A stretch of DNA of 64,000 nt from a virus (IMGVR_UViG_3300023174_000117:23581-87580), one strand, 5' to 3'. Counted from the first letter of the stretch, positions 6,611 to 60,428 are shown. A program made the numbers and translations. The notes: generated by a model not told the origin, from the letters alone.

Positions 6611-7696
6611 ATGAAAAAATTAAAAGTTGGAATTACAACCAGAGATGAGGCAAGTATTTGGTCTAATGGTTTGGACCAAAATATATATTTTCTGTATAAG
6701 ATGCTTGAAGACATGGGTTATGACCCACATTTGATTACAGAAGCACAGAATTCTCTAAAACTTGTCGACATTAAAGTTGAAAAACAGGATGTCTATTCTA
6801 TTCGAGAGTTTGACCTTGTACTTGAAGTAGCTCACCCATTAAGTGAGAAACTTACTTCATATTATAACAGCCTTGGAAAACCATTAGTTTCTATAAAATA
6901 TGGAAACTCTTTTATGATAGATTTGGAAAAATATATTCAAAAAAATGGAGAAAATAAAAATTTTTCTACAGGTGTAAATATCCCATTCCGAAATAGAGAG
7001 ATTTGGGTTTCAGAACAATTCTATAAATTCAAGGATTATATAGAAGTTTTAACAAGAACTAACGTCAAAGTAATTCCTTACATTTGGGATTCTTCTATAT
7101 TAAGAATGTATGATGAGGGCTTTCATAATCAGGATATGAAAGTTAAGAAAGAAGATTTCAGAAAGTTAGCTATAGTTGAGCCAAACTTAAATATATTGAA
7201 AAACTGCATGGTCCCTCTAGCTATATGTGATATGGCTTACGATAAAAGAAGTGACCTGATCAAGGAAGTTCTTTGCTTCAATTCAAAGTCGATGGATAAA
7301 AATAACGTATTTATGAATTATATTAAGTGCTTAAATATACATAAGAATAAAATATCTTCCTATGAGGGCAGATACCCATTGTATAAGATATTTAAAAATA
7401 ACAATGCAAATACGATTATTTCAAATCAACTTTTTAACGAACAAAATTATGTCTACTTAGAAACGCTTTTTTACAAAAGACTTCTTATTCACAATAGCCC
7501 GCTATTTAAAGATGTTGGATATTACTATCCGGAATTTGATGTAAATAAAGGTTCCGACGTATTGATTGAGGCGCTGGAATCATTCGATCAAGTTAAACAT
7601 ATTGATTCTTATGAGGCGAAACTAGAGCAAGTTTCTATTTATAATGAGAAGAACCAACAAGTGACAAGAGAACTTATTGAAGGTGTTTTAAAATGA
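6611..7696 (+). CDS. DUF2827 glycosyltransferase-like protein, copy 1
   Basis: The protein has 361 residues. From memory of the DUF2827 family it has the typical landmarks in order: KVGITTRDEASIWSNGLDQN at the start, PYIWD around 160, VEPNLNILKNCMVPLAICD around 190-208, EGRYPLYKIF, SNQLFNEQNYVYLETLF, and VGYYYPEFD near residue 305. These proteins resemble GT-B glycosyltransferases lacking an obvious membrane anchor, and are found in phages and in bacterial surface-sugar loci. The gene runs opposite to all neighbours, overlaps its paralogue by four bases (ATGA) and has a GAGAAG ribosome site. A role in modifying virion or host-surface sugars is inference. Confidence 0.7.
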   Translation: MKKLKVGITTRDEASIWSNGLDQNIYFLYKMLEDMGYDPHLITEAQNSLKLVDIKVEKQDVYSIREFDLVLEVAHPLSEKLTSYYNSLGKPLVSIKYGNSFMIDLEKYIQKNGENKNFSTGVNIPFRNREIWVSEQFYKFKDYIEVLTRTNVKVIPYIWDSSILRMYDEGFHNQDMKVKKEDFRKLAIVEPNLNILKNCMVPLAICDMAYDKRSDLIKEVLCFNSKSMDKNNVFMNYIKCLNIHKNKISSYEGRYPLYKIFKNNNANTIISNQLFNEQNYVYLETLFYKRLLIHNSPLFKDVGYYYPEFDVNKGSDVLIEALESFDQVKHIDSYEAKLEQVSIYNEKNQQVTRELIEGVLK

Positions 7697-8769
7697 GAAA
7701 ACTCAAGATAGGTGTGACCTGCAAGGACTCCTCTAAACTTTGGTCCAATGGTTTAACTCAAAATGCTTATTTTTTAATTGAACTTCTAAAAAAGATAGGA
7801 TACAAGAGAGTTGATCCCGTATCTCAATTTGATGATGCGAAAAAATTTATAGAAGAATATGAAATACTCCATTTAAATAAAGACACGATCACAAATTATG
7901 ATCTTATTATTGAGGTTTGTTATTCCGTTACTGATAACCTATTAGATTATGCAAAAAAGAAAGGTATAAAGGTAATAACGATTAACTACGGCAACATCCT
8001 GATGTTGATGCAGGAGGACTTAGTTTTAAATCCAAAAAGCAATCCTGCGGTTAATAGAGGCGGATTAGACTCTTGGATCTCTCCACACTTTGAGTTTTCA
8101 AAAGGATTTGTTGAGACAACATCAAAGGGAAGGGTTGAAATCTGTCCTTATATTTGGTCTCCAAAGATATTTAACAAATATTGCAAAACAAATAATTTAG
8201 ATATTTTTTATAAAGACAAAGCAAACATAAACAAAGTTGGAATATTTGAATCAAATATAAACATAATTAAAACATGTATTTATCCTCTAATTTCTTTGGA
8301 GAAGTTAGAGAGAGAAGATAAAAATATAATAAAGGAAATCCTCATCTTTAATGCTGTACATCTGAAGGATAACCCTAAATTCAAGGAAATAACATCAAAT
8401 TTTGATATATTTTTAAACAAAAAAATATCGGCAGAGGGAAGATACCCACTGCCGAATATGTTGGCGAAAGGCTATGTTGGAATGATTCTCTCTCACCAAT
8501 TTTATTGCGATCTAAATTATCTAACTCTAGAAGGATTTTATTCTGGTCACCCCGTAATTCATAACAGCGAATTCTGTAAGGATGCTGGATATTTTTACGA
8601 AACATTTAGTGCGGATAGCTGCGTATCTCAAATAAAGAAGGCCATAGAAACTCACGATGAAAATATAGAAAATTATAGAAAATCGGCCAAAGAAGTTATA
8701 TTTAAGTTCTCCGCAGAGAATCCAGAGAACATAACAAAATATAGATATCTTATAGATAATATCAGCTAG
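7693..8769 (+). CDS. DUF2827 glycosyltransferase-like protein, copy 2
   Basis: The protein has 358 residues and is clearly paralogous to the previous one. Shared landmarks are SKLWSNGLTQNAYFL at the N-terminus, CPYIWSP, FESNINIIKTCIYPLISLE, EGRYPLPNMLAKG, SHQFYCDLNYLTLEGFYSGH and AGYFYETFS. The start overlaps the first copy's stop (ATGA), so they form a two-gene operon. Divergence between copies suggests different substrates rather than a fresh duplication. The 3' end overlaps the convergent gene at 8762 by eight bases. Together the pair looks like an accessory cassette inserted between structural genes. Confidence 0.7.
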   Translation: MRKLKIGVTCKDSSKLWSNGLTQNAYFLIELLKKIGYKRVDPVSQFDDAKKFIEEYEILHLNKDTITNYDLIIEVCYSVTDNLLDYAKKKGIKVITINYGNILMLMQEDLVLNPKSNPAVNRGGLDSWISPHFEFSKGFVETTSKGRVEICPYIWSPKIFNKYCKTNNLDIFYKDKANINKVGIFESNINIIKTCIYPLISLEKLEREDKNIIKEILIFNAVHLKDNPKFKEITSNFDIFLNKKISAEGRYPLPNMLAKGYVGMILSHQFYCDLNYLTLEGFYSGHPVIHNSEFCKDAGYFYETFSADSCVSQIKKAIETHDENIENYRKSAKEVIFKFSAENPENITKYRYLIDNIS

Positions 8770-27685: not shown

Positions 27686-30532
27686 TTACATCCTTCTTGT
27701 CACATGAGCCAGGACTGGTTTTGGCATAACAGTTTCGCTATTATTTATACCTGGTTTAATAGTAAAACCTTTAGTTAAATCAAATTTATATGCCATATAG
27801 GCATACATAAGTGCCATAAGACCGTCGTTAGGCGAATTACCCTTTATATATGTTTTTATCGGCTGACCACCAACAACTCTGATGGATGATTCCATAGACG
27901 TGCAATGATCGATGAGCCATTCAATATACTCAAAGCTTTTCCACGGAAATCTTATCTTTCCTTTTCTAAAGTTATCAAAGATTTCTTCAACCAAAAGATC
28001 TTTATTATAAGAGACTATCAATTCGTCATCTCTGAATTTCAGAGGCTTTAATAAATTTCCGCTTCCCTGGGCGCCTAAAAATTTATCGCCATAATGCCTT
28101 TGAAGATCATGAACAACGTCCTGACCAAAGAACCAGTCAGACACGCCGAGTTTTACCCCAAATCTTTTATACATCTCATTTATTGTCTCTTTCTTATAAT
28201 CAAAGTCTTGCTTCTTTAATTTATGGGCATGCTCAACAAGAAGTGTTCCGTCGGGCATAGCAGAAAGAATAACAACACAGGAGTATGACTGACCCACGTT
28301 GGAGGAATTATCATCGTCTTTGCCACCCCAGTCAACTCCAAGATAAGTTGTCTTTTCTCTGGGCAAAATCCTTTTGGCAAGAGAACGATCTGCATCTCGG
28401 CATTTTTCATATATTTCAGCCCTAGTTATTGGAAGTCCCGCTCCAGAGAAAAATTCTCCAACAACCTCGTTCTTATAAATCCTATCTGTCTGAAGTGGGT
28501 TATTTTCAGGCATAAGGTTTAGAATATTTTCTTTTGTAAAGTAAGGGATATATAGCTGATTTATATGAAAACCTACGAATTTACAATCCTCTGATTTTCT
28601 TGAGGCTACCCACATGCCGTTTTCAATTGCATCTACTTTATTCTGTTCGCAGGAACAAAGTGGACACTTTATTGTGTAACCGGAGACCCAGATGTCCAAC
28701 CAGTCTCTGCTTTCGGGAAGATAAAAAGGATAAGTCCCTTTGCAATTCTTGCAGCCAAGATGATAATATCTCTGATCAGACATATCCCACATGGATGAGA
28801 AATAACTATTCTTTTCCTTTGGTGTTCCAAAGTAAACTTGAACGCCAGTGCCAACAGGACCATATTTTGCTGCGGTCAATATTTTTGTTGCGTTTCCAAT
28901 TGACTGTGCAAACATGTCCTGACAATTGCTGACTACTATTCCTCCAAGATTTTTGCTAGTTTTTGAAGTAGTTACGATAAAATTGTGGTTGTCCTCAACC
29001 TCAATATCATAAACAACTTCTTTGTAATCTAATTTTATTATTTTATCAACAGATGTGACACTAGTTACAAGTTTTCCTTCATTCCATTCATATTTATCAT
29101 TATCAGTGTTTAGAATTTCATATGATATATTGTCATGAACATATGGAGAAATTAGTTCGGATAACTTCTTAAAACTATCCTCATTAAAATATATTGAATA
29201 ATACTTCTTATCCTTTTTTGCACCAGAAAGATAAGATTTGTAGTGACAATCTATTCCAAGTGACTTAAATTTTTCAACGAATCTTTTCTGTGAATCTTCA
29301 TCAAAAGAACGGGTTGATAAACACACAGAGCCGGATTCACCCCATTTTTTAACGCTACCATTATCCATAAACCATATGGCAATACCTCTTTCATCAAGGC
29401 TATCCAAAACCCATTGAGGGCAACTAACCTTATTCTTTGGTAAAGCCGAATTCAAGCCAAACAACTTGGTAGTAAATTTGATGGCCGGCTTTTTACTAAA
29501 GCCATTTTCTTCTATTGTAGCAATACTAGAATCAAAAAATGATGCCTTCCACTTGCAATAATTTGATTGTGATTCTCCATGAATCACGCTCATCCTGTAT
29601 TTTCCATTTCCACTACTTGCAATGGAGCCGGCGCCAAGAAATGAACCCAAAACTATTTGTAATTGATCAGAATTTAAATTTCTAACGAATGTTTTTGTGG
29701 CCGGGGAGGACATTATCAGGCTTCCGATCGTGAGATTTTCCGCCATAATCCAGCCTTTAGTTGTTAAAAATTTATGATTTGGCGTACATCTGACTACCCT
29801 ATTTCCAAGATGTAGCTCTAATAAACTTCTCTCGCCTCTATTCCAAGCATTTTTAATCTTTTTAAATTCAAAAGACTTCAATTCTTCATTGTAGCTTTTT
29901 ACAAATGGAAGTTGCTCACCTTTTGTAAATAGGTCAAATATTTTTCCTATTTCTATTTTTCCAGAATCAGTCTCTATAAATGTGTTGTATGGAAAGCATT
30001 CATCAAAAAAGATAGCATCAACGGTCATACCACGAATTCTGTCTGCATCTTCACCAATACTATCTATCCATAAAGTTCCGTTATTAAACTGCTTCATGGT
30101 TAGATTGTCTGCTGCGTTCGTTGATTTTAGCTTGTTCTTTATTAGAAAGTTATCTTTTGATGTTCTTATTAAGCTTTCTAACTTATCCTGAGAAAAACGC
30201 TTTACGAAATGAAGGGCGGGAAAGGCATGAAGAACCTTCATATTTTGAAACATACCACCATTTGTAAAATATAGATCTAAGGCGGCGGCCATCATAGTGG
30301 CACCAACCTGTCGACCCTTTTTGATTACAACTGGTTTCCCAATCTTCTGAGTTGATTGCAGACCTATATATCTATAAATGTCAACCATGAATTTCCAGCC
30401 GTTACCAATAATTCGGAACTCCTCTCCATCGAGTCTCAAATTATTTTGGATAAAGTAGGCTGGGTCTAAATCCAGAAAGTTGCTTTTTATATTATCAAAT
30501 AGTTCTTGCTCTTTCTTTTTTAATTCATTCAT
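27686..30532 (-). CDS. terL: Terminase large subunit, interrupted by an intein
   Basis: The protein has 948 residues, 590 after removal of the intein (residues 179-536). The ATPase shows VVIKKGRQVGATMM at residues 68-81. It is a deviant Walker A with Ala where Lys is usual, as in lambda gpA-like enzymes, with Lys71/72 just upstream. Walker B is AIFFDE, cut by the intein directly after the glutamate. After the intein come zinc-type pairs (CKNC, CPLC) and YLGVDWGGKDDD, the first acidic motif of the RNase-H-like nuclease. The layout with zinc pairs resembles the GpA-type terminase family. No ribosome site is visible before the ATG, which overlaps nothing upstream. Confidence 0.85.
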   Translation of the reverse strand: MNELKKKEQELFDNIKSNFLDLDPAYFIQNNLRLDGEEFRIIGNGWKFMVDIYRYIGLQSTQKIGKPVVIKKGRQVGATMMAAALDLYFTNGGMFQNMKVLHAFPALHFVKRFSQDKLESLIRTSKDNFLIKNKLKSTNAADNLTMKQFNNGTLWIDSIGEDADRIRGMTVDAIFFDECFPYNTFIETDSGKIEIGKIFDLFTKGEQLPFVKSYNEELKSFEFKKIKNAWNRGERSLLELHLGNRVVRCTPNHKFLTTKGWIMAENLTIGSLIMSSPATKTFVRNLNSDQLQIVLGSFLGAGSIASSGNGKYRMSVIHGESQSNYCKWKASFFDSSIATIEENGFSKKPAIKFTTKLFGLNSALPKNKVSCPQWVLDSLDERGIAIWFMDNGSVKKWGESGSVCLSTRSFDEDSQKRFVEKFKSLGIDCHYKSYLSGAKKDKKYYSIYFNEDSFKKLSELISPYVHDNISYEILNTDNDKYEWNEGKLVTSVTSVDKIIKLDYKEVVYDIEVEDNHNFIVTTSKTSKNLGGIVVSNCQDMFAQSIGNATKILTAAKYGPVGTGVQVYFGTPKEKNSYFSSMWDMSDQRYYHLGCKNCKGTYPFYLPESRDWLDIWVSGYTIKCPLCSCEQNKVDAIENGMWVASRKSEDCKFVGFHINQLYIPYFTKENILNLMPENNPLQTDRIYKNEVVGEFFSGAGLPITRAEIYEKCRDADRSLAKRILPREKTTYLGVDWGGKDDDNSSNVGQSYSCVVILSAMPDGTLLVEHAHKLKKQDFDYKKETINEMYKRFGVKLGVSDWFFGQDVVHDLQRHYGDKFLGAQGSGNLLKPLKFRDDELIVSYNKDLLVEEIFDNFRKGKIRFPWKSFEYIEWLIDHCTSMESSIRVVGGQPIKTYIKGNSPNDGLMALMYAYMAYKFDLTKGFTIKPGINNSETVMPKPVLAHVTRRM
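28925..29998 (-). mobile_element. TerL intein with LAGLIDADG homing endonuclease
   Basis: The 358-residue intein begins at Cys179 of the precursor (CFPYNTFIETDSG) and ends VVSN before Cys+1 (CQDMF). Splicing block B is RCTPNHKFLTTKGW. The block F-like stretch is VYDIEVEDNHNFIV. Two LAGLIDADG-type motifs (LGSFLGAGSI and IAIWFMDNGS, intein residues 117-126 and 206-215) mark a DOD homing endonuclease. The second acidic positions look degenerate (Ala/Gly and Asn/Gly), so nuclease activity is uncertain. The penultimate residue is Ser rather than His. The site is the Walker B of the packaging ATPase, a highly conserved and therefore typical homing target. Confidence 0.85.
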
Positions 30533-38369: not shown

Positions 38370-38807
38370 TTATATAGTTTTCTCTTTTATTTTATCCATT
38401 TCTTCCAGAAGAATCTGTATTTTGGGGTTTGTCTTGCAAATCTTTTTTAATTTTTTAAAGATTCCACCATATCTTTTTTTATCATTCCTATAATCAAGAT
38501 TCCCTCTAAGAGCCTTATGAACTGCGGACTGAGTGATGCCAAGAGACTCTGCGATTTGATTTTGTGTTTTTCCAACCAGAACCATATAGAGAATTTTTCT
38601 TTGGTGCTCAGTTAAAAAATCACCGTTTATGATTTCATAAACCTGCTCTAGGAGCTCAGACCTTAAGTCTACCAAATCTTCTGATAATGAATTTTCAGCC
38701 AATACTCCGGCTATACCTTTATCTTCTGAAAAATTATTTAACTTAGACTGATCAAAAGAAATCTCAACAATTCTATGTTGATAATTCTTGCTTTTATTTT
38801 TTTTCAT
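38370..38807 (-). CDS. Sigma region-4-like DNA-binding protein
   Basis: The protein has 145 residues. FLTEHQRKILYMVLVGKTQN followed by QIAESLGITQSAVHKAL (about residues 68-105) is a sigma-70 region-4 helix-turn-helix. No region 2 is present, so it is either a partner of another sigma factor or a repressor/activator with a region-4 fold. The ATG at 38807 overlaps the primase stop (TAATG) and has GGAG six bases upstream; a GTG six bases earlier is less likely. It is placed at the border between replication and structural genes, fitting a late-transcription regulator. Confidence 0.65.
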   Translation of the reverse strand: MKKNKSKNYQHRIVEISFDQSKLNNFSEDKGIAGVLAENSLSEDLVDLRSELLEQVYEIINGDFLTEHQRKILYMVLVGKTQNQIAESLGITQSAVHKALRGNLDYRNDKKRYGGIFKKLKKICKTNPKIQILLEEMDKIKEKTI

Positions 38808-39571
38808 TACCACTCCAAGGGAAGAATTTGGTTTACTTCATTAAAAAAATCCTCTTTTGCTTTTCCAGAATTTAAAAAATATTCCCCTGCATCTTTATAA
38901 CCTGACGGCAAACTCAGAAACCTAAGTTTCGCACCCTTGCTTATAAATTTGTTATAAATTTGAGAAGATGATTTTTTTCCACCATCATCCATATCTAGAA
39001 AAAATGTAATCTTATCGGTATATCTTGACAACTTGATGAAGTGATTCTTTGAAAACGCAGTTCCACACACAGCCACTGTGTTGGTTATACCGGAATCAAA
39101 CATACTCATTTGATCAAAATAACCCTCAACAACAAAAACATTTTGATTTAGTAGAATTTCCCTTCTGGAGAGTCCCAAACCAAATAAATAATTTGTTTTT
39201 TTAAACTTGCTATTTTTGTACTTCGGAATGTCGAGAATTGTCCTTTCTCTCTCAGACAACATGGTTCTTCCGGCCAAACCTACCGGGTTCCCATACTCAT
39301 CACGAATAGGAAAGATGATGGAATAATAATCGGAAAAATCACTCGTTCCGTCATAGTTCATCATTCCAATTTTTTTCAGAAAATCTTCTGATACATGCTT
39401 ACATAAGGTTTTTATATTTTTTGGAAAAAAACCTAACTGATATGTTTTAAAGATGTCGGTAGAGATCTTCCTCTCATCAAAGAGATAATCTTTACCTACC
39501 TTTGTTTTCTTTAAATTTTGATGACAAATATCGATTAATTTATTTAGTTCCGAAAAATCATTCTGAGTCAT
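38807..39571 (-). CDS. dnaG: DNA primase catalytic (DnaG RNA-polymerase/TOPRIM) domain
   Basis: The protein has 254 residues, containing only the catalytic core of DnaG: IIFPIRDEYGNPVGLAGRTM (residues 85-104), the NYLFGL motif, the TOPRIM glutamate motif FVVEGYFDQMSMFDSGI (E149, D153), and the DxD of ITFFLDMDDGGKK (D193/D195). The N-terminal zinc-binding domain is absent and is encoded separately at 59895-60428. The helicase-binding C-terminal domain is also missing. It synthesises RNA primers at the fork. It sits between a zinc-ribbon protein and a sigma-like gene; it overlaps the upstream gene by 14 bases. Confidence 0.85.
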   Translation of the reverse strand: MTQNDFSELNKLIDICHQNLKKTKVGKDYLFDERKISTDIFKTYQLGFFPKNIKTLCKHVSEDFLKKIGMMNYDGTSDFSDYYSIIFPIRDEYGNPVGLAGRTMLSERERTILDIPKYKNSKFKKTNYLFGLGLSRREILLNQNVFVVEGYFDQMSMFDSGITNTVAVCGTAFSKNHFIKLSRYTDKITFFLDMDDGGKKSSSQIYNKFISKGAKLRFLSLPSGYKDAGEYFLNSGKAKEDFFNEVNQILPLEW

Positions 39572-45603: not shown

Positions 45604-46605
45604 TCACCATAGTTTTAAGGTTGACTTCACAATGCAGAGGGCGACACTATATGGATCGCAATTACTTGCAGGTCTGCGATCTTCTACATAGCCCTTCCAC
45701 TCCTTGCCTGTATCAATTGGTACGCGAATTGAAGATCCACGATCGGAGACACCCCAAGAAAATTTGTCGATCGACTGTGTTTCATGCCGACCCGTCAATC
45801 TTGCTTCATTACCCTTTCCATAATTCTGAATGTGATCCCAATGATGATCTGAGAATGATTGAAATATTCCCTCGAAATATTCCTGACCACCAACATCTCT
45901 CATTTGAGTTGTACTGAAATTCGTATGGCAGCCAGAGCCGTTCCAATCTCCCCTAATTGGCTTTGGTGAAATGTCGATATCAAGACCTTCCCTCTCAGCC
46001 ATGAGGTATAGCATATATCGACTAATCCAAAGATCATCGCAGGCTTTTAGGGTGTCCTTTGCAAAACATTGGTATTCCCACTGCCCTGGCGCAACCTCAG
46101 CATTAATGCCGGTAAGCTGAATTCCCATAAACAAACAGAGATCTAAATGCTCTTCTACAAGCGGCCTTGCTTTAATCTGGTTTCCTCCTACACCACAATA
46201 ATAAAGGCCCTGAGGGCGGGGATAACCACCATCTGGAAAGCCAACTGGTGTAAAATTTCTTGTTATGAAATATTCCTGCTCAAAACCCCACCAGAAGCCG
46301 GAAGAATCCATATGATCCTGGAGTTCTCTCAATTTGCTACGAGTATTTGTTACATGAGGAGTTCCGTCCGGATTGAATACCTCACACAGGACTATTGTTT
46401 TTGACTCACTAAATTTATAGATTCTAACTGGTTTCAAGATACAATCAGACTTTCTTCCTGTAGCTTGCTCAGTGGATGAACCGTCAAAATTCCAATCCTT
46501 AACAAACTTTAGGAAATGTGGGGGCTCATCAACAACTTTAATCTTACTTCTCAAATTCTGTGTCTCATATCCATCTAACCAAACATACTCTAACTTATGT
46601 GACAT
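45604..46605 (-). CDS. glnA: Glutamine synthetase, eukaryotic-type (GSII)
   Basis: The protein has 333 residues from the second of two adjacent ATGs, which is better spaced from GGAG. It matches GSII across its length: LEYVWLDG, DWNFDGSSTEQATG, WGFEQEYF (metal-binding Glu pair), GYPRPQGLYYCGVG, GINAEVAPGQWEYQ, GDWNGSGCHTNFS (catalytic His region), GNEARLTGRHET and YVEDRRPASNCDPY. All key acidic, His and Arg positions look intact, so it should make glutamine from glutamate, ammonia and ATP. GSII of about 340-370 residues differs from the usual 470-residue bacterial GSI. Glutamine feeds purine and CTP synthesis, useful during DNA replication. It is coupled to dnaE-C by a TAATG overlap, which argues for regulation with polymerase. 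Confidence 0.9.
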   Translation of the reverse strand: MSHKLEYVWLDGYETQNLRSKIKVVDEPPHFLKFVKDWNFDGSSTEQATGRKSDCILKPVRIYKFSESKTIVLCEVFNPDGTPHVTNTRSKLRELQDHMDSSGFWWGFEQEYFITRNFTPVGFPDGGYPRPQGLYYCGVGGNQIKARPLVEEHLDLCLFMGIQLTGINAEVAPGQWEYQCFAKDTLKACDDLWISRYMLYLMAEREGLDIDISPKPIRGDWNGSGCHTNFSTTQMRDVGGQEYFEGIFQSFSDHHWDHIQNYGKGNEARLTGRHETQSIDKFSWGVSDRGSSIRVPIDTGKEWKGYVEDRRPASNCDPYSVALCIVKSTLKLW

Positions 46606-46607
46606 CA

Positions 46608-47729
46608 TTACTCCTTTATTCCGAAAATTTCTATCAACTCAGATAGTGAAAGGCTTTTTTGCCCCAGATACTCATCTACCTTGCAGATTGCCTTAAAAGG
46701 TATCCCATCCTTAAATTTTGTTCCGTATTTTTCGTAATCATCCATCCACAGTGTAATTTCGGATGTATCGCCGGAAAGATCTTCTATGAGATATTTGGCA
46801 AACTTTCTGCCTAAATTTTTACCTTGTTTTACTTTAAATTCTTTGACTTTTGTTTTTATAATTGCCTCAACTCTTATTTTAACCCCCGGCTTATAAGAAC
46901 CTAAATCTTTAAGCTTGAAGGTGCTCCCCATATTCCTGAAGAATCCGGCAAAGATTTCGTGAGAATTTCCGGAAATCGTTCTACCCAGAACCTCCCTTTC
47001 GTTATAAAGTAATTCCTTTCTATCCCACTCTTCGATGGGAGGTGGGAAATCTGTTTCGGAGATAAGTTTTCCTTTTTTCAAACCATTCTTTATTTTTGTT
47101 CTAAAGTCATCGAAATTCTCAAAAATGTCCTTTCTCGTCCTCCCGAAAGAATCAAGGGCGCCAGCTCTTGCCATAGATTGAATTGATGACTTTCCGATAA
47201 AAGGAATATTTTCAATCTTATTCTCTTTTGTTGCTGGCTTTCCAAGTTTTAAGAAATCATAACAGCCAAGCTCCTCTCCATCTACATGAACAAGGATTCC
47301 TTTGCAAATAAAGTCGGAAAAACTATTGAACGGTTGATATTTTATAATCTCAGAAATTGCTGCGGGACCCAAGCCTTTTATCGCCGAAAGTCCGGTTGCA
47401 ATCGTTTTCTCCCCAACGACTCTATAGTTATCACCGCTCTTATTTACGTCGGGAGGGATAATTTCTATACCAAGCCTCTTACATTCGTTAAGATATTCCT
47501 GAACTTTATCACTATTCGGATCTTCTCCATTTAGAAGTGCGCACATGAATTGTGATGGATAATGACACTTCAGCCAAGCAGTTTGAACAGAAATAATAGA
47601 ATAAGAGATTGCATGAGAGTTTGATGTGAGAATGCCATTTGATAGATAATACTGATGGTCTGGATGATCGACTTCCAGATCATACGTATCGAACTCACCA
47701 ACCTCTTCGCATGAAACTATTTTTGCCAT
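46608..47729 (-). CDS. dnaE: DNA polymerase III alpha, C-terminal part with N-terminal half-intein
   Basis: The protein has 373 residues. The first 37 are the C-terminal half of a split intein (TYDLEVDHPDHQYYLSNG, ILTSN). Serine 38 begins the C-extein SHAISYSIISVQTAWLKCHY, which is exactly the conserved DnaE stretch after GYGFN(K/R). The 336-residue extein includes the helix-hairpin-helix region (ATGLSAIKGLGPAAISEIIK) and an OB-fold (KIRVEAIIKTKVKEFK ... ITLWMDDYEKYG). It is inactive alone and needs trans-splicing to the upstream gene product. A GGAG sits 11 bases before the ATG, in the stop region of the endonuclease gene. Confidence 0.9.
   Translation of the reverse strand: MAKIVSCEEVGEFDTYDLEVDHPDHQYYLSNGILTSNSHAISYSIISVQTAWLKCHYPSQFMCALLNGEDPNSDKVQEYLNECKRLGIEIIPPDVNKSGDNYRVVGEKTIATGLSAIKGLGPAAISEIIKYQPFNSFSDFICKGILVHVDGEELGCYDFLKLGKPATKENKIENIPFIGKSSIQSMARAGALDSFGRTRKDIFENFDDFRTKIKNGLKKGKLISETDFPPPIEEWDRKELLYNEREVLGRTISGNSHEIFAGFFRNMGSTFKLKDLGSYKPGVKIRVEAIIKTKVKEFKVKQGKNLGRKFAKYLIEDLSGDTSEITLWMDDYEKYGTKFKDGIPFKAICKVDEYLGQKSLSLSELIEIFGIKE
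47619..47729 (-). mobile_element. Split intein, C-terminal half (IntC)
   Basis: The 37-residue IntC contains block F (YDLEVDHPDHQYYLSNG) and block G (GILTSN followed by Ser+1). This length matches known phage-type IntC pieces. The residue before the final Asn is Ser, not the usual His. Confidence 0.85.
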
Positions 47730-47734
47730 TTAAT

Positions 47735-48874
47735 TTAAACTCCGTAAATCTTTAAAATTTCTTGTTCTGTTTTGGCAAAAGTATACTCTTGACCATTCCA
47801 ACTCTTGCCTATAAAATGGACGCCGGGTGTTGGTGATGTTATTATTTCCCTTGCCTTGTTTAGTGCAAATTGGTTGAATCCACCACCCGATTTGTACGAA
47901 TAAATATCAGAAGACACTCTAATTAGAGTTATTGAATTTCTGATGCAATATTTTGAAAAAAAAGAATCCTTCAATTTAATCTTAGTTAAGGTCCCTTTCC
48001 ACACTTCTTTAAAATGAAGAAATCCATCATATTCTATATATATTTTTTTTGAATCAGAAATTATATCGATTTGTTTGTTTCCGGTCTTATTGAATGAAAA
48101 GAAGGAGTTGTCTTTTTTGAATTTATTATTAACGAAATTATGATCTGGAAAATAGGATGATATAATTCGATACAACTCTTTTTCTGGCCTAGATTTATAC
48201 TTATGCATATTCGATGTACATTTAATATAGAAATCTTGCCTATTGCCATCTCTCCATTTCTTTAAGGTAAAAGCTCTCTTCTCTTGAATGTCTTTTCTCG
48301 CAGAAGTCTTCTTCGCAGTTTCGCTTGCTTTCTTTCTAAACGCCTCAGTCTTATTTAGAGAACCCAGCATGTCTGCCCTTCTCTTTCTTTCTTCTGGGGA
48401 ATTTAGTATTGATTCTCTGACACCCGCAGAGACTTTCTTCCAATACTCGGTTAGGTCTTCACCTCGTTCTTTTGCTTTAACAATCCAATTGCCATTCTCT
48501 TCCGCTGCCTTGGAATATTTATCTCTTGACCCCGGAGCAAGAACAGGTCCATGGACTTTGATATATTCTTTTTTATCAATACCATGAACCTTTCTAACAT
48601 GAAGTGCGAGAGATGAGCCGACTTCATCACAGAGAGCGCACTTTACAAGTTCGCCTTGCTCTAGGCCAAGCCTAATTCTCTCTTTTTCTTCTGCGACCAT
48701 AATCTCGCATTTAGATTTGTGAAATGAAAGAGATCTGACGGAGTAGCAAACCTCTCCACATTTGCATGTTCTTTGCTCTATTGGTTCGTTACGATCTCTA
48801 GGTTTTCTTTTAGAATCTGGTGAAGAGGCAGCATTCTCCCGTCCATCGTTCTGAACTTGTGATTTATCGTGCAT
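47735..48874 (-). CDS. Free-standing Vsr-like homing endonuclease inside the fractured dnaE
   Basis: The protein has 379 residues. Two zinc fingers lead: TCKCGEVCYSVRSLSFHKSK (C37, C39, C43, H52, C56) and a MucR-like C2H2 finger (C79, C82, H92, H97) followed by YIKVHGPVLAPGSRDKYSKA. A Lys/Arg-rich helical region (160-205) resembles NUMOD-type DNA-binding helices. The C-terminal 100 residues fit the Vsr-like EDxHD fold: EKELYRIIS (E231), QIDII (D270), IYIEYDGFLHF (E281, D283, H287). It should cut intein-less dnaE alleles and drive spread of the split cassette. Its first 32 codons overlap the end of IntN in another frame, and it stops five bases before IntC. Confidence 0.8.
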   Translation of the reverse strand: MHDKSQVQNDGRENAASSPDSKRKPRDRNEPIEQRTCKCGEVCYSVRSLSFHKSKCEIMVAEEKERIRLGLEQGELVKCALCDEVGSSLALHVRKVHGIDKKEYIKVHGPVLAPGSRDKYSKAAEENGNWIVKAKERGEDLTEYWKKVSAGVRESILNSPEERKRRADMLGSLNKTEAFRKKASETAKKTSARKDIQEKRAFTLKKWRDGNRQDFYIKCTSNMHKYKSRPEKELYRIISSYFPDHNFVNNKFKKDNSFFSFNKTGNKQIDIISDSKKIYIEYDGFLHFKEVWKGTLTKIKLKDSFFSKYCIRNSITLIRVSSDIYSYKSGGGFNQFALNKAREIITSPTPGVHFIGKSWNGQEYTFAKTEQEILKIYGV

Positions 48875-49083
48875 TCTACAGTTTCCCCGTCATCAAGTGT
48901 GATTTTGAATAGTTTGAGCTTGCCATGATAATGATTGTCCAAAACCTTTACGGATATGTTTTCGCCGGTAACTTCATCCCGAGATAGGACTGTGCTGCCA
49001 GGCTTGACGTTTTGGATCTCAATATCTTGCCAATCTCCACCCTCTGGAGGAATTATACGCACCTCTTGAGAAAAAATCAAGGA
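48778..49083 (-). mobile_element. Split intein, N-terminal half (IntN)
   Basis: The 101 residues begin SLIFSQEVRIIPPEGG (block A), include block B CTINHKFRTMDG, and end at the gene's stop. IntN plus the 37-residue IntC totals 138 residues, the size of a minimal intein. The first residue is Ser instead of the commoner Cys. The insertion point (GYGFNR/SHAIS) is four residues beyond that of the cyanobacterial split DnaE intein. Confidence 0.85.
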
Positions 49084-51429
49084 TCGGTTGAAACCATATC
49101 CAGAAAATGAAGAGATCTCTTCATCCCATATTTTCTGACCTTCTTCATAAGACATGCCCCATGTTTCCATGCAACCTTTGATAAAGTTTGCCTCGGTTTT
49201 AAGTGCCAACTGAGGATCTTTTCCCTTTAGTTTAGTAAGCTTTCTCAGGTTATCGGCTTCGTTAAGATCCCATCCGGCACATTCCCTCGCGATACCCATC
49301 ATACTTTCTTCGTATAGCGAGATGCCGTAAGTATCCTTAAGAACAGGCTCTAGAGATTGATGGGTATAACGAACGCGATCTTGACCAAACCTTCTTCGGA
49401 TATAACTTTGACGCTGCTCTGATGGGCAGCTAGGACGACCTAAGGCGTTGATGGCGGCAATTGTCTCGACATCGCTTGGCTTAATTTTTACGCAAAGCGG
49501 CGATAAGGATGACTCCAGTTGGAATACCCCAATATTCTCTCCACGAGAAATCATCTTGTATGTTTCTGGATCATCAATCGAAATATCTGATATTTTAATA
49601 TCCTTGTTGTCGGTTGTCTCTCGAATATATTGCAAGCAGCTTTCGATAACATTGAGAGTATTTAGACCGAGAACATCCATCTTGACAAGTCCAAAATCCT
49701 CAACTCTGGTCTTCTCCCATTGAGTGACTGTGATAGACTCTCCTGTTTTTTCGTCCTCTTCAATTCTCAATGGAATAATTTCATATAGAGGTCTGTCTCC
49801 AATAATTACACCCGCAGCATGTACGGACCACTGACGAGTTAGATTTTGAAGCTTTGATGAATAATCCTTAACATCAGGATATTGATTCATAAATTTTGAG
49901 AATTCCTTGCTTCCATCGATTGCCTCTTCAATCGTATCAACATCAGGCATGATGGATGTAAGATGATTCGCTATTTCAAATGCTGACTTTTTATCTCCAC
50001 CAATCTCAAGACTTCTGGCGACATCTTTGAGAACGACCTTTGGAGACATCGTTGACCAGTTGCTGATTTGGGCGACATAATCTTTTCCATATTTTTCCTT
50101 GATATATGCCTTGACTCGATCTGGATTTGAGAAGTCACAGTCAATATCAGGAAAGGCTTTCTTCTCCCTATTGTGGAACCTTTCAAATAGCAAGTTGTAT
50201 TTGATTGGATCAACCGATGTGATAGAGATCAAGTTTGCAACTAGAGAACCGGCAGCACTTCCTCTTGCTGCTCCCACAGAAACACCATTTTGCTTCGCCC
50301 AATTTACATAATCAGCAACAATCAACATGTATGATGAGAAGTTTCTAAGCTCAAGGATGGAAAGCTCGTATTTTGTACGATTCCAATACTCCCTCTTTTT
50401 TTCCTCAGAAAAAGATTGAGTCATCTCTTGGAACCCTAGAACGCACTTATATCTGAGGTAAGCCTTATCCATCGGAAGCTCTTCACAATTTTCCTGCCAC
50501 CATTCACGAAACTGAAGAAAGTCTGGCTGGTTTTTCACAGGAAATTGTGGAAGTATTGCACCTTTGGTTTTGAGATAATGAGGTTCTTCGCAAGCGGCAG
50601 CAATCTTTAGAGAATTGTTCATAGCCATGATGCCAATCCTGCTTCCAAAAAAGCTTATGATTTCATCATGAGATTTTAGATACATTTCTTGGACGCCGTA
50701 GCGGAAACGATCTGGATCTGAGAGTGGCTTCTTATCCTTGATTGCAAGCATCATATCGTGATACTTTGCATGATCCTTATCTAGGTAATGGGCATCGCAA
50801 GTTGTAACAAAAGGAATATCATGCTTTCTGGATAGCGAGATTAGATTTTCGTTTAACTTTACCTGATCCACCTTTCCGTCATCTGTCTTTAGAGCGTGAG
50901 GCTGAATTTCTAAAAATAGTCTATCCTGAAAGATGGAGTGGAGCCTGAGAAGATTTGCTTCCGCAGAATCTATATTGTCAGAAACAATGTCTTTTGAGAG
51001 CAAACCATTAGAACAAGCGGTTAGACAAAAAATATCTGAATTGAATTTCTCGATATGCTCCCAAGAAATTCTGGGCGTCATTTTGCCCATATATCCTGAG
51101 GCTTGATTGTTATAAGCCTCGTAATTTAGGCGCAAAATATTCTTATATCCGGTTTCGTTCTTTGGAACCAAAACCATATGGGAAGACTTCTTTTCCTCTA
51201 GATTCGGAGAGAAGTAAGCTTCAATTCCTGGGATTAGTTTTACACCGGTTTTTTGAGAGGCACGATAGGCATCATAATGACTAACGGCGGTTCCATGCTC
51301 TGTGATTGCCAGGGCCGGGTGTTCCAATTCCTTAGCTCTATCAAAAAGCTTATTTACATCATTCAGCGCATCGAGGGCGGAACCTTGCTCGCTGTGATTA
51401 TGTAAAGATACGAAAGGTCCGTTAGGCAT
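48778..51429 (-). CDS. dnaE: DNA polymerase III alpha, N-terminal part with C-terminal half-intein
   Basis: The protein has 883 residues from the second ATG (51429), which has GAGG at proper spacing; an ATG six bases upstream is too close to it. Residues 1-782 are the N-extein: PHP domain (SLHNHSEQGSALDALN, ITEHGTAVSHYDAY, IPGIEAYF), polymerase palm with the catalytic PDIDCDFSNPDRV, then fingers to FSGYGFNR. The final 101 residues are the N-half of the split intein starting at Ser. Spliced DnaE would be about 1118 residues, close to normal. It is the phage's replicative polymerase. Its start overlaps the HNH gene by eight bases. Confidence 0.9.
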   Translation of the reverse strand: MPNGPFVSLHNHSEQGSALDALNDVNKLFDRAKELEHPALAITEHGTAVSHYDAYRASQKTGVKLIPGIEAYFSPNLEEKKSSHMVLVPKNETGYKNILRLNYEAYNNQASGYMGKMTPRISWEHIEKFNSDIFCLTACSNGLLSKDIVSDNIDSAEANLLRLHSIFQDRLFLEIQPHALKTDDGKVDQVKLNENLISLSRKHDIPFVTTCDAHYLDKDHAKYHDMMLAIKDKKPLSDPDRFRYGVQEMYLKSHDEIISFFGSRIGIMAMNNSLKIAAACEEPHYLKTKGAILPQFPVKNQPDFLQFREWWQENCEELPMDKAYLRYKCVLGFQEMTQSFSEEKKREYWNRTKYELSILELRNFSSYMLIVADYVNWAKQNGVSVGAARGSAAGSLVANLISITSVDPIKYNLLFERFHNREKKAFPDIDCDFSNPDRVKAYIKEKYGKDYVAQISNWSTMSPKVVLKDVARSLEIGGDKKSAFEIANHLTSIMPDVDTIEEAIDGSKEFSKFMNQYPDVKDYSSKLQNLTRQWSVHAAGVIIGDRPLYEIIPLRIEEDEKTGESITVTQWEKTRVEDFGLVKMDVLGLNTLNVIESCLQYIRETTDNKDIKISDISIDDPETYKMISRGENIGVFQLESSLSPLCVKIKPSDVETIAAINALGRPSCPSEQRQSYIRRRFGQDRVRYTHQSLEPVLKDTYGISLYEESMMGIARECAGWDLNEADNLRKLTKLKGKDPQLALKTEANFIKGCMETWGMSYEEGQKIWDEEISSFSGYGFNRSLIFSQEVRIIPPEGGDWQDIEIQNVKPGSTVLSRDEVTGENISVKVLDNHYHGKLKLFKITLDDGETVECTINHKFRTMDGRMLPLHQILKENLEIVTNQ

Positions 51430-52729
51430 TACCATTCCTCATGTGTCTTGGTATGAATTTGTTGTCTTTATAATTACTATCATCTGAAAGATTTTTGATT
51501 ATCTTGGAGTACAGACTTACTATTTCATTTCTTTCGGATGATTTGATTCGCTTAGAAAGTGTGATAAGCCAGTCTTTTGGCAGCAAATTTTTTTTCATGG
51601 AGTTACATTGCCAACATGCAATGTCTAAGTTATTTCGATCGTTCGACCCGGATTCTTTTTTTCCTAAAACTGGAATTATGTGCTCTAAATGTAGTTTAGC
51701 CGTTCCGGATGGATGGTCCGGTATCTCGTCTTTATGCCTTTCGCAGTAACAACATGAATCGTACTCGTCCAGTAATTTTGAAAGAAATACTCTGTCTATT
51801 TTTCTTAAATGTTTATCTCTTCGGTTTTGAGAACTTGAGATTTGCGATAATTTTCCAGATTTCGTCCGAGTCCATTCTTTGTATCTTTTTTTAATCTTGT
51901 CTTTATTTTTTTCAGAATAAGCTAAGTCATACTCTGATTTTTTTAGCTTTAAAGCAAAATCAATCTTGTCAAAGCATATCTTGCAAAGAAGGCCGTCACG
52001 AAATTTATTTAGTAAAGCCTCAGGAATCTCAACTGAATATTTCTCACAGGCGCTGTTTTGACAATATCCCATACCTACTTCTGGTTTTTTTAAATTTCTT
52101 CTTGCCCAAAAAGGGTATGACCTGCCTGCAAATAGAGTTAGGTGTTTTGGTGACACACAGTTTATATTTCCACATGATGCAGATATGGAAAAGTATTTGG
52201 AAGTCACTTTTGAGTTAAAGAGTTCATAATATATTTTTTTTGAAGAAAATAAATTTTTTCCAATTTTCAATATCGCTTTTTTGGATGATGAATCGCCGTA
52301 AATCCAGCAGTCCCCTTTTGTGGTAATTCTATCTATAAGTATAGACCTAACTGCAATTATCTCTTTTTCAGATGGATTGGAAAAATTTATTTCGGAATCA
52401 AGACCATACTTAAACCAATATGGTTGAGAGTTTTTCTCGAAATAGAAGAAATGCTCTTTATTCATACATGATTTATTGCATCTGATGTGAATGTACTTTC
52501 CGGTGTTTGGAACAAGAACTCTTCTTATAGAATTGTAATAATCGCTATCTCTATCCTGGTCCGGCCACAACATACAACCAAGCTCATTTTTGATTGCAAC
52601 GCTGTTTATAACATTTTCTGCCTTAAACTTCTTCCAGCAAGAAAAACAAACTACGGATGGCTTCGCCCCTTCTTTTTTGATAAAGGAGCTTTCATCCTTG
52701 TTTTCATTACATTTTAAACATCTTATCAT
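51422..52729 (-). CDS. HNH endonuclease (probable homing enzyme) upstream of dnaE
   Basis: The protein has 435 residues. The N-terminus is a zinc ribbon (RCLKCNE ... CFSCWKKF). Two partial 'CxxxxCVxPxHL' modules (RCNKSCMNKEHFFYF and SCGNINCVSPKHLTLF) recall degenerate HNH_3 folds. A further zinc site follows (CQNSACEKY ... CKICFDKI). The C-terminus is a clear HNH nuclease: CCYCERHKDEI, LHLEHIIP, then NLDIACWQCNSMKKNL. No ribosome site is visible at its ATG. It overlaps the start of dnaE-N by eight bases and probably homes into this locus independently of the split intein. Confidence 0.75.
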   Translation of the reverse strand: MIRCLKCNENKDESSFIKKEGAKPSVVCFSCWKKFKAENVINSVAIKNELGCMLWPDQDRDSDYYNSIRRVLVPNTGKYIHIRCNKSCMNKEHFFYFEKNSQPYWFKYGLDSEINFSNPSEKEIIAVRSILIDRITTKGDCWIYGDSSSKKAILKIGKNLFSSKKIYYELFNSKVTSKYFSISASCGNINCVSPKHLTLFAGRSYPFWARRNLKKPEVGMGYCQNSACEKYSVEIPEALLNKFRDGLLCKICFDKIDFALKLKKSEYDLAYSEKNKDKIKKRYKEWTRTKSGKLSQISSSQNRRDKHLRKIDRVFLSKLLDEYDSCCYCERHKDEIPDHPSGTAKLHLEHIIPVLGKKESGSNDRNNLDIACWQCNSMKKNLLPKDWLITLSKRIKSSERNEIVSLYSKIIKNLSDDSNYKDNKFIPRHMRNGNA

Positions 52730-58735: not shown

Positions 58736-59898
58736 TATCCTATAATCCTTTTAGATTCTTCCAGCAGAAGTTTCATCATTTCTGGGGAAAGGTCTTGCAT
58801 TTCTGCATAAGCCTTAAAAATATCATAATCATTTTTATGATTTAGTATATCTTGATTTTTCTCAGATTTGGTTTGCGATATATCAATTAGAATCTTCGTT
58901 AATAAAAAGCAACCTCTTCCATAACAGAATTTCTCTATTTCATTTTTGTTGATGACCCCAGATAAGTTTTCTTTAATTAGAAGCTTAATTTTTATAATTT
59001 TATCTGAAAGGTCTTTATTCTTCAAAAAGTCTTTTACGGACTCAAGATAATTCGACGTTGTTGCAGACTTGAGATCTATCTCAATGTCTTCGATTTCTCG
59101 AACTGGATTTTTTATTGTCTTAACTTCTTTTGTTAAGAAATTGAAATCTATAAAGTATTTATCCGTCTTAGAATCGCCAAAGTTTGTCTTCTCAAGTGAG
59201 CCTACATAATAAGAGACTGGTTCTTTCTTTCTGACGAGAGAGAACTCATGGAGATGACCCATAACAACAAGATCAGATCTCTTTACTGATTCGGGATAAA
59301 GCAAAACTTCTCCGCCACCAAAATCAAAATAATTTCCCTTAAAAAAGAAATTATGTCCAACAGTTAGCGTTGGAAGCTTCAGATCCACATCGGAAAACAA
59401 AGATGAAATATGGGTATTGAAGCTTTCAACATATTCTTTTTGATTTGAGCCCGCATACATTCTCTTGTCACGATATGGGATCATGAAAAGATTTGCTTTA
59501 TTGCCATTCTTGTTTGTATAAACGATATTCTCTGGCTCCAAAAGCAGCCTTACATTGGAATAATTCTTCGCAGGAAGTGAAGATATTGAGCTGGTAAAGG
59601 TTTCTCCTGTCTTTTTATAATCATGATTTCCCATTATTATTATAGTGAAAATGTGGTTATCAGACAGTTTTTTTATCGCACGATCAGCTATTTCGATCTG
59701 CTCTGGAGTTGGATTCCTAACTTCAAAAAGATCTCCAGTCTGAATGAAGATATCTGCCTCCGTCTTGATGGCATAATCAACGATATAGTTTAGTGAACGT
59801 TCATAGTCATCAATTCTTGTATTTCCACCATTTCCATTGTTCTTGCCTAAACCAAATATGGCCCCAATATGGGTGTCTCCACAAATTACAGCCCTCAT
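58735..59898 (-). CDS. sbcD: SbcD/Mre11-like nuclease (gp47 type)
   Basis: The protein has 387 residues. Metal ligands of the calcineurin-like phosphoesterase fold are all visible: GDTH (D8, H10), TGDLFE (D56), MGNHDYKK (N91, H92, D93), VGHNFFF and MGHLHEFS. It cuts DNA ends and hairpins with SbcC. Its ATG overlaps the primase-zinc gene by four bases, so the resection complex and primase subunit are co-translated. Confidence 0.9.
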   Translation of the reverse strand: MRAVICGDTHIGAIFGLGKNNGNGGNTRIDDYERSLNYIVDYAIKTEADIFIQTGDLFEVRNPTPEQIEIADRAIKKLSDNHIFTIIIMGNHDYKKTGETFTSSISSLPAKNYSNVRLLLEPENIVYTNKNGNKANLFMIPYRDKRMYAGSNQKEYVESFNTHISSLFSDVDLKLPTLTVGHNFFFKGNYFDFGGGEVLLYPESVKRSDLVVMGHLHEFSLVRKKEPVSYYVGSLEKTNFGDSKTDKYFIDFNFLTKEVKTIKNPVREIEDIEIDLKSATTSNYLESVKDFLKNKDLSDKIIKIKLLIKENLSGVINKNEIEKFCYGRGCFLLTKILIDISQTKSEKNQDILNHKNDYDIFKAYAEMQDLSPEMMKLLLEESKRIIG

Positions 59899-60428
59899 CT
59901 TGCACCAAATTTTTTCTTCATCTTTTCATTTAAGGATGTTAGGTATTTCGCATCATCTTTCTTTTTTTCGAAAATTACTTCATCTAGCTTTTGCAAAAAG
60001 CCGTTGGTATCTTCGAGAGTCTGTGGGTTGTTAATCAGAAATTCTCTAATTACTTCGGAGTTTTGCACCAAAAGCGGAAAGCACTCCCTTTTCTTCTCAA
60101 CAACATCAGAATATTTACCAGGAAACTTAACAAGAAGCTTTAGATCATTTAGGGCTTCTAGAAATTCCTTTTGAGCGCAAAGCATATAGAAATCTATAAC
60201 AGAACTTCCTGCATTACACCCATAGCAAAAAAAGTTATTATCCTTCGAGTTGATATAAAGAGACGATGTTCTTTCTCTTCCGTGCTTATGATTTACGGAG
60301 GGGCATCTACACCTAAGATCAAAATTACCGGCGGCAGTTCTCTCCAATCCAATGGAAAAGTTACGAGCTATATCAGCTATCATAACCTGCTTTATGACGT
60401 CATTTTTAGATGCCTTCAAATTTTCCAT
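59895..60428 (-). CDS. Stand-alone DnaG zinc-binding (CHC2) domain
   Basis: The protein has 177 residues. Residues 38-82 are the DnaG zinc finger: CRCPSVNHKHGRERTSSLYI (C40/C42, H47), FFCYGCNAGSSVIDFYM (C68, C71). A helical C-terminal region of about 90 residues follows, with no polymerase domain. It should recognise priming sites on single-strand DNA and act with the catalytic half at 38807-39571. Overlaps sbcD by four and the FtsK-like gene by 13 bases; the ribosome site is weak, suggesting coupled translation. Confidence 0.8.
   Translation of the reverse strand: MENLKASKNDVIKQVMIADIARNFSIGLERTAAGNFDLRCRCPSVNHKHGRERTSSLYINSKDNNFFCYGCNAGSSVIDFYMLCAQKEFLEALNDLKLLVKFPGKYSDVVEKKRECFPLLVQNSEVIREFLINNPQTLEDTNGFLQKLDEVIFEKKKDDAKYLTSLNEKMKKKFGAR

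Follow-up and report, generated by a model that had tools for sequence, protein, structure and literature searches.

A phage replicative polymerase gene divided by a putative trans-splicing split intein, with a predicted homing-type nuclease gene in the gap

A replicative polymerase gene that is broken in two raises the question of how the phage carrying it could obtain an intact enzyme. We addressed this question for dnaE, which encodes the α subunit of the replicative DNA polymerase III (Pol III), in a stretch of 64,000 nt (positions 23581–87580; hereafter, the window) of the 87,580-bp IMG/VR phage record IMGVR_UViG_3300023174_000117. In the window, dnaE is interrupted at GYGFNR^SHAIS (where ^ marks the break), and the minus strand carries, in this order, dnaE-N, an open reading frame (ORF) of 379 amino acids (aa) and dnaE-C. 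The features of the locus are as follows (IntN and IntC, N- and C-terminal intein halves; AF2, AlphaFold2).

49084–51429, minus strand: DnaE N-extein, ending in GYGFNR (Pfam PHP, 4e-30; DNA_pol3_alpha (NTPase), 3e-73; finger, 3e-38)
48781–49083, minus strand: IntN, 101 aa, with Ser1 at 49083 and block B T72-I-N-H75 (NCBIfam intein_Nterm, 4e-4; family profile, 159 bits)
48884–48888, minus strand: candidate Shine-Dalgarno sequence GGGGA for the nuclease, within the IntN coding sequence (GGAGA in relatives)
48778, minus strand: stop codon TAG of dnaE-N
47735–48874, minus strand: endonuclease ORF, 379 aa (alignment of 13 homologues, AF2/Foldseek, PHROG homing endonuclease matches)
47807–48187, minus strand: predicted Vsr-like/EDxHD-type nuclease domain, endonuclease residues 230–356 (alignment and AF2/Foldseek)
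47619–47729, minus strand: IntC, 37 aa, with blocks F and G, ending in LTSN (NCBIfam intein_Cterm, 2.2e-4; 10-row alignment A1)
46608–47618, minus strand: DnaE C-extein, with the rest of the finger motif (SHAISYS), HHH_6 (Pfam, 7e-17), OB fold and stop

The original prediction, made from the sequence of the window, had described dnaE-N (48778–51429) as ending in GYGFNR plus a 101-residue intein part, and dnaE-C (46608–47729) as opening with 37 residues of blocks F and G followed by SHAISYS. Both sets of coordinates hold, and a comparison with intein models, which it had proposed as a check, recovered NCBIfam intein_Nterm (E = 4e-4, just under the model cutoff) and intein_Cterm (E = 2e-4, passing the cutoff) at the break, together with a Pfam Intein_splicing match below its cutoff (E = 0.009). 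The start codon of dnaE-N was assigned to the ATG at 51429 rather than to another in-frame ATG further upstream at 51435, because relatives start there and an AGGA lies 6 nt upstream. The claim that joining the exteins restores DnaE was borne out as well, since the joined exteins align without gaps across the junction with the intein-free DnaE of related phages (GYGFNK-SHAIS). A DnaE search yielded such empty-site phages at ~78% identity over the best segment (L002–L005 and L012) and at ~62% (L007–L011 and L013). In L002, L003 and L005, the empty site reads GGN-TAY-GGN-TTC-AAY-AAR^TCN or AGT-CAY-GCN, so that the insertion point is exact. In the closest relative (L006), dnaE is a single ORF of 1264 aa, whose contiguous 147-aa mini-intein sits at precisely this position and has no nuclease; in the next clade, the site is empty.

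The window intein has the residues that characterize class 1 inteins (Ser/Cys1, TxxH in block B, a terminal Asn and Ser/Thr/Cys at +1), namely Ser1, T72xxH75, the C-terminal Asn37 of IntC and a +1 Ser, with one Cys in each half. However, its penultimate residue is Ser in place of the His usual in class 1, as in 10 of the 10 rows of alignment A1. A penultimate His is common in inteins, although not strictly required. Both halves are conserved across the family described below, with purifying selection where tested and with Ser/Cys1, TxxH, the terminal Asn and Ser+1 retained; four relatives (L049, L051, L056 and L058) have Cys1 instead of Ser1. In L048, the start of IntN reads FNK-TCHFEE, so that position 1 is either Thr or, if this Thr is an additional extein residue, the Cys that follows it. 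Assignment to class 3 was set aside, as Ser1 is present, block F has no Cys and relatives have Cys1. The predicted Hint fold is present in a structural model built on the contiguous L006 homologue (L006:10350–10790; pLDDT 93), not on the two chains of the window; NpuDnaE was the best PDB match of this model (TM 0.81/0.84), and its weak stretch (~residues 101–110) is where the window intein breaks. By sequence, the closest solved inteins were likewise DnaE inteins (7qil, 6e-12; Npu 2keq, 8e-10), followed by gp41-1 (2e-4).

Both exteins are under strong purifying selection, with dN/dS values of about 0.02–0.04 (against L006, 0.063/3.0 for the N-extein and 0.09/2.1 for the C-extein). Although the gene is interrupted, this selection, the 95/86% identity of the exteins to the contiguous relative and the stability of the split over deep divergence make it very improbable that dnaE is a pseudogene broken by nuclease insertion in a phage that relies on the host polymerase. 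A second intact dnaE, the finding named beforehand as a refutation, was sought in the 87,580-bp contig without success, dnaE-N giving a single match there; the 459-, 321- and 233-kb contigs of the family each had one full dnaE-N match. The proposed fractured-gene arrangement agrees with the complementary IntN and IntC, the exact restoration of the exteins, the homing-type nuclease that occupies the gap, and the lack of a second dnaE in the contig; there is good computational support for reading the locus as a fractured gene whose intein splices in trans.

We consider it highly probable that a split class-1-type intein trans-splices the only detected replicative polymerase of this phage, and that the intervening nuclease drives homing. 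DnaE-N-IntN and IntC-DnaE-C would be translated separately, and after association of the intein halves, trans-splicing via Ser1, Asn37 and Ser+1 would join the exteins as a full-length DnaE of about 1118 residues. Translation of the Vsr/EDxHD-like nuclease would begin within IntN, and this enzyme would probably cleave the dnaE of co-infecting phages where the allele lacks the intein or is divergent; repair of the cut allele would copy the whole IntN-nuclease-IntC cassette. The sequences themselves show the split and the homologies, the predicted nuclease fold, the conservation, and the apparent lateral movement of the intein and decay of the nuclease in relatives. Three points weigh against it. 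The 87.6-kb record may be a genome fragment, in which case a second dnaE might lie elsewhere; the efficiency of splicing is uncertain because the family-wide penultimate Ser replaces the usual His; and we infer splicing, the cleavage target and homing. The unusual Ser would also be compatible with halves that associate as separate subunits without splicing, the intein pieces being leftovers, and such an unspliced split has been reported in a phage nucleotide reductase divided by a homing endonuclease gene (cited in PMC10448857). We regard this as improbable here, since IntN and IntC are conserved and, where tested, under purifying selection, Ser/Cys1, TxxH, the terminal Asn and Ser+1 are kept, and the break falls within the highly conserved GYGFNKSH motif.

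An alignment search with the IntC region gave 27 viral contigs (L033–L059) whose DnaE has an intein at this site, of which 24 are split, two are contiguous (L006, which is also L033, and the more distant L056) and one (L050) is interrupted by the contig end. The observation was confirmed, and it is beyond chance, as 24 viral contigs besides the window have dnaE split in this way. The number of independent cases is somewhat smaller than that of contigs because L038/L039 and L043/L044 are near-duplicate pairs. A full-length homologous nuclease occupies the gap in 11 contigs (L040, L041, L045–L049, L052, L053, L055 and L057), and one truncated by the contig end in L059 makes 12 with a homologue. 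In L036 and L038/L039, the halves are ~3.5–4.7 kb apart with unrelated genes in between. Since the contig is metagenome-assembled and the L006 intein is contiguous, we also weighed whether a contiguous intein that contains a nuclease domain only seems broken, owing to an assembly error or a frameshift; however, we judge this most unlikely, given the like arrangement of the three ORFs in numerous contigs from separate samples, the ribosome-binding site and ATG of the nuclease at a conserved nested position, and the kilobases between the halves in L036, L038 and L039. In a scan of 84,980 cellular genomes, the only match was L082, a 3.2-kb contig of 1.6x coverage with the same split dnaE in a Thioploca metagenome-assembled genome, which has low coverage and is probably contaminating phage DNA, so that a cellular origin of the split dnaE is unsupported.

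The gap between the halves had been ascribed to a free-standing endonuclease gene. A nuclease gene does fill it, but it is not free-standing in the strict sense: its start codon is nested inside IntN in the +1 frame, and its first 97 nt (48778–48874) overlap the end of dnaE-N/IntN. The GGGGA upstream of its ATG corresponds to GGAGA in nine of the nine homologous loci printed, encoded by the Gly-Glu of the intein itself. Neither Pfam nor NCBIfam gave a family match for the nuclease, which has PHROG homing endonuclease matches. Neither a scan for related loci with the window nuclease alone nor tblastn against named phages gave relatives; homologues were reached only via the intein. In the alignment of the 13 homologues (A3), the N-terminal part contains paired Cys/His, and P230-E231, Q268xD270, E281xD283-G, H287-F and D303 are invariant where letters are present. 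The AF2 model (pLDDT 79.6, pTM 0.44) is confident in the C-terminal domain; its top Foldseek match was the Vsr structure 1cw0 (prob 1.00, E = 3.6e-3), with 1vsr, also Vsr, at prob 0.93, although the E-values are modest, and the N-terminal part matched 2jsp (Ros), consistent with C2H2/Ros-like zinc fingers. A Vsr-like fold with an EDxHD-type domain is therefore predicted from the model, and the residue pattern agrees with the fold match: E231, D270, E281, D283, H287 and D303 are candidates for the E-D-x-H-D-type residues, as judged from A3, which comprises the phage homologues and not I-Bth0305I. Outside the overlap, dN/dS of the nuclease between L040 and L041 was 0.067/0.468 (= 0.14).

There remains some chance, though a small one, that the gap ORF is an unrelated free-riding nuclease rather than the homing endonuclease of this site. 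It lacks a Pfam or NCBIfam match, its target is presumed, and the gap of L042 holds a different nuclease-like ORF of 661 aa. On the other hand, homologues fill the same gap in a further 12 contigs, where their start is usually nested in this way, the predicted fold is Vsr-like, and the surrounding intein appears to move laterally.

The latter tendency emerged from a comparison of intein and extein histories. Between the window and L006, identity was 95.0/85.8% in the exteins and 71.4/81.1% in the intein, whereas between the window and L016, it was 61.0/52.3% in the exteins and 83.7/89.2% in the intein. The extein tree paired the window with L006 (100/99), rejected a pairing with L016 (approximately unbiased test, p-AU 1e-51) and united L015–L018 (100/100); the intein tree grouped the window, L006 and L016 (98/96) and rejected L015–L018 as a clade (p-AU 0.011). 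Within this trio, the tree did not resolve whether the window intein is nearer to L016 than to L006 (p-AU 0.27). Since the two phylogenies conflict, the simplest reading of the sequences is that the intein was transferred laterally, which is what homing would predict.

The nuclease is found in various stages of decay: it is broken into two frames in L018/L034, reduced in L016/L037 to the 5′ end plus a short piece of the 3′ end, and represented by a 3′ remnant only in L043/L044; a remnant was weakly detected in L051, and none was found in the short gaps of L015 and L054. The split thus outlives the nuclease, as split relatives keep only remnants of it. To polarize the contiguous and split states, a tree of about 138 columns was rooted with DnaE inteins of the SAAGSL site. 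The contiguous L006 intein nests in a clade (97/93) in which all other members are split, with L006, the window and L016 as a trio (97/97). Because of this nesting, a re-fusion in L006 is more parsimonious than many separate splitting events, which suggests that its contiguous intein is a re-fused split intein, with the caveats of ~138 columns and of long outgroup branches flagged by the tool; this pattern could also be mimicked if nucleases had repeatedly converted contiguous inteins to the split form.

In several relatives, the polymerase gene is in more pieces. A second DnaE intein site, GPARG^C..N^SAAGSL, holds an unsplit intein in L015 and L018; in L040 (L040:1002–7146), this site is also split, so that dnaE consists of three genes with different nuclease-like ORFs (323 and 360 aa) in the two gaps. 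The dnaE of L052 is further split in its N-terminal part. A 172-kb contig as assembled (G015; L084/L085) has a dnaE of four or more pieces, with ~16 kb separating the first piece from the second; the dnaE of a 309-kb contig as assembled (L083; G013:C1:73900–88500) appears to be divided among ~8 ORFs over 13.7 kb, flanked by intein halves and interspersed with three nuclease-like ORFs, possibly the most fragmented polymerase gene in this set. We are evenly divided on whether these states are stages of one complete homing cycle that runs on a split gene, in which a split intein and its nuclease invade, the nuclease decays and is lost while the split persists, the halves drift apart, and the intein is re-fused to a cis-splicing mini-intein (L006), the process being multiplied in certain jumbo phages up to ~8 trans-spliced polymerase pieces.

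Fractured genes, in which split inteins have intervening endonucleases, were reportedly described in phage-like environmental DNA by Dassa et al. in 2009. The window shares with these genes, and with AceL NrdHF, where the same arrangement occurs in another gene (PMC7891396), two extein genes, split intein halves and an endonuclease between them; it differs in its host, the replicative polymerase dnaE, in the nuclease start nested in IntN, and in having relatives that are also contiguous, nuclease-decayed or physically separated. The window intein shares its dnaE host and the loop at which it is split with the cyanobacterial split DnaE intein (Ssp/Npu DnaE), one of its nearest structurally solved counterparts in both sequence and fold, a link that is seen as best similarity, but it has Ser1/Ser+1 instead of Cys, a nuclease and a phage carrier. 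The insertion sites also differ (GYGFNR^SH in the window), the cyanobacterial site lying four residues upstream, before rather than after GFNK/R. The nuclease resembles Vsr and I-Bth0305I of the EDxHD homing endonuclease family (PMC3943268) in its predicted fold and possibly in its E..D..ExDG..H..D pattern; in contrast, it adds N-terminal Ros-like zinc fingers and is known here from sequence and model, and the I-Bth0305I structure was not among the listed Foldseek matches. The Cys-less phage split inteins Aes123 PolB1 and LCGC14 PolB2 (PMC12707363) likewise have a Ser1 nucleophile in a split intein of a phage replicative polymerase; however, their hosts are family-B polymerases, and the window intein is not cysteine-free.

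In the literature searched, we found no report of a fractured phage dnaE or of an intein at this dnaE site, although Dassa et al. 2009 or subscription literature might list one. Taken singly, the locus extends the fractured-gene kind by a new case, in a replicative polymerase, and its value lies in the surrounding set of related states. The origin and persistence of split inteins are an open question, argued mostly from isolated cases, whereas here, one site in one essential gene is empty, contiguous, split with a nuclease, split with a decayed nuclease, or separated in related phages. The contiguous/split pair at 95/86% extein identity therefore makes direct tests possible of cis versus trans splicing of sister inteins, of the nuclease target and of whether the split heals. 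Moreover, these Ser1 inteins, whose LTSN end is invariant, add new candidates to the search for trans-splicing tools.

One further feature adjoins dnaE.

51422–52729, minus strand: HNH endonuclease ORF, overlapping the dnaE-N start from upstream (Pfam HNH, 2.5e-6)

A similar ORF precedes the intein-free dnaE of L003 in the same place and is absent before the dnaE of L006. The window ORF seems to be another mobile nuclease gene at dnaE, independent of the split intein and separate from it. Directly downstream of dnaE-C lies a glutamine synthetase-like gene (45604–46608), which is kept in L006 and was not seen right after dnaE in L007–L013. Elsewhere in the window, the terminase large subunit gene (27686–30532) contains a contiguous intein of a different type with a LAGLIDADG endonuclease domain. 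The zinc-finger part (38807–39571) and the DnaG_N/toprim part (59895–60428) of a primase are separate genes 20 kb apart with no visible intein halves, and two adjoining DUF2827 genes (6611–8769) lie on the plus strand in a region that is otherwise minus-strand.
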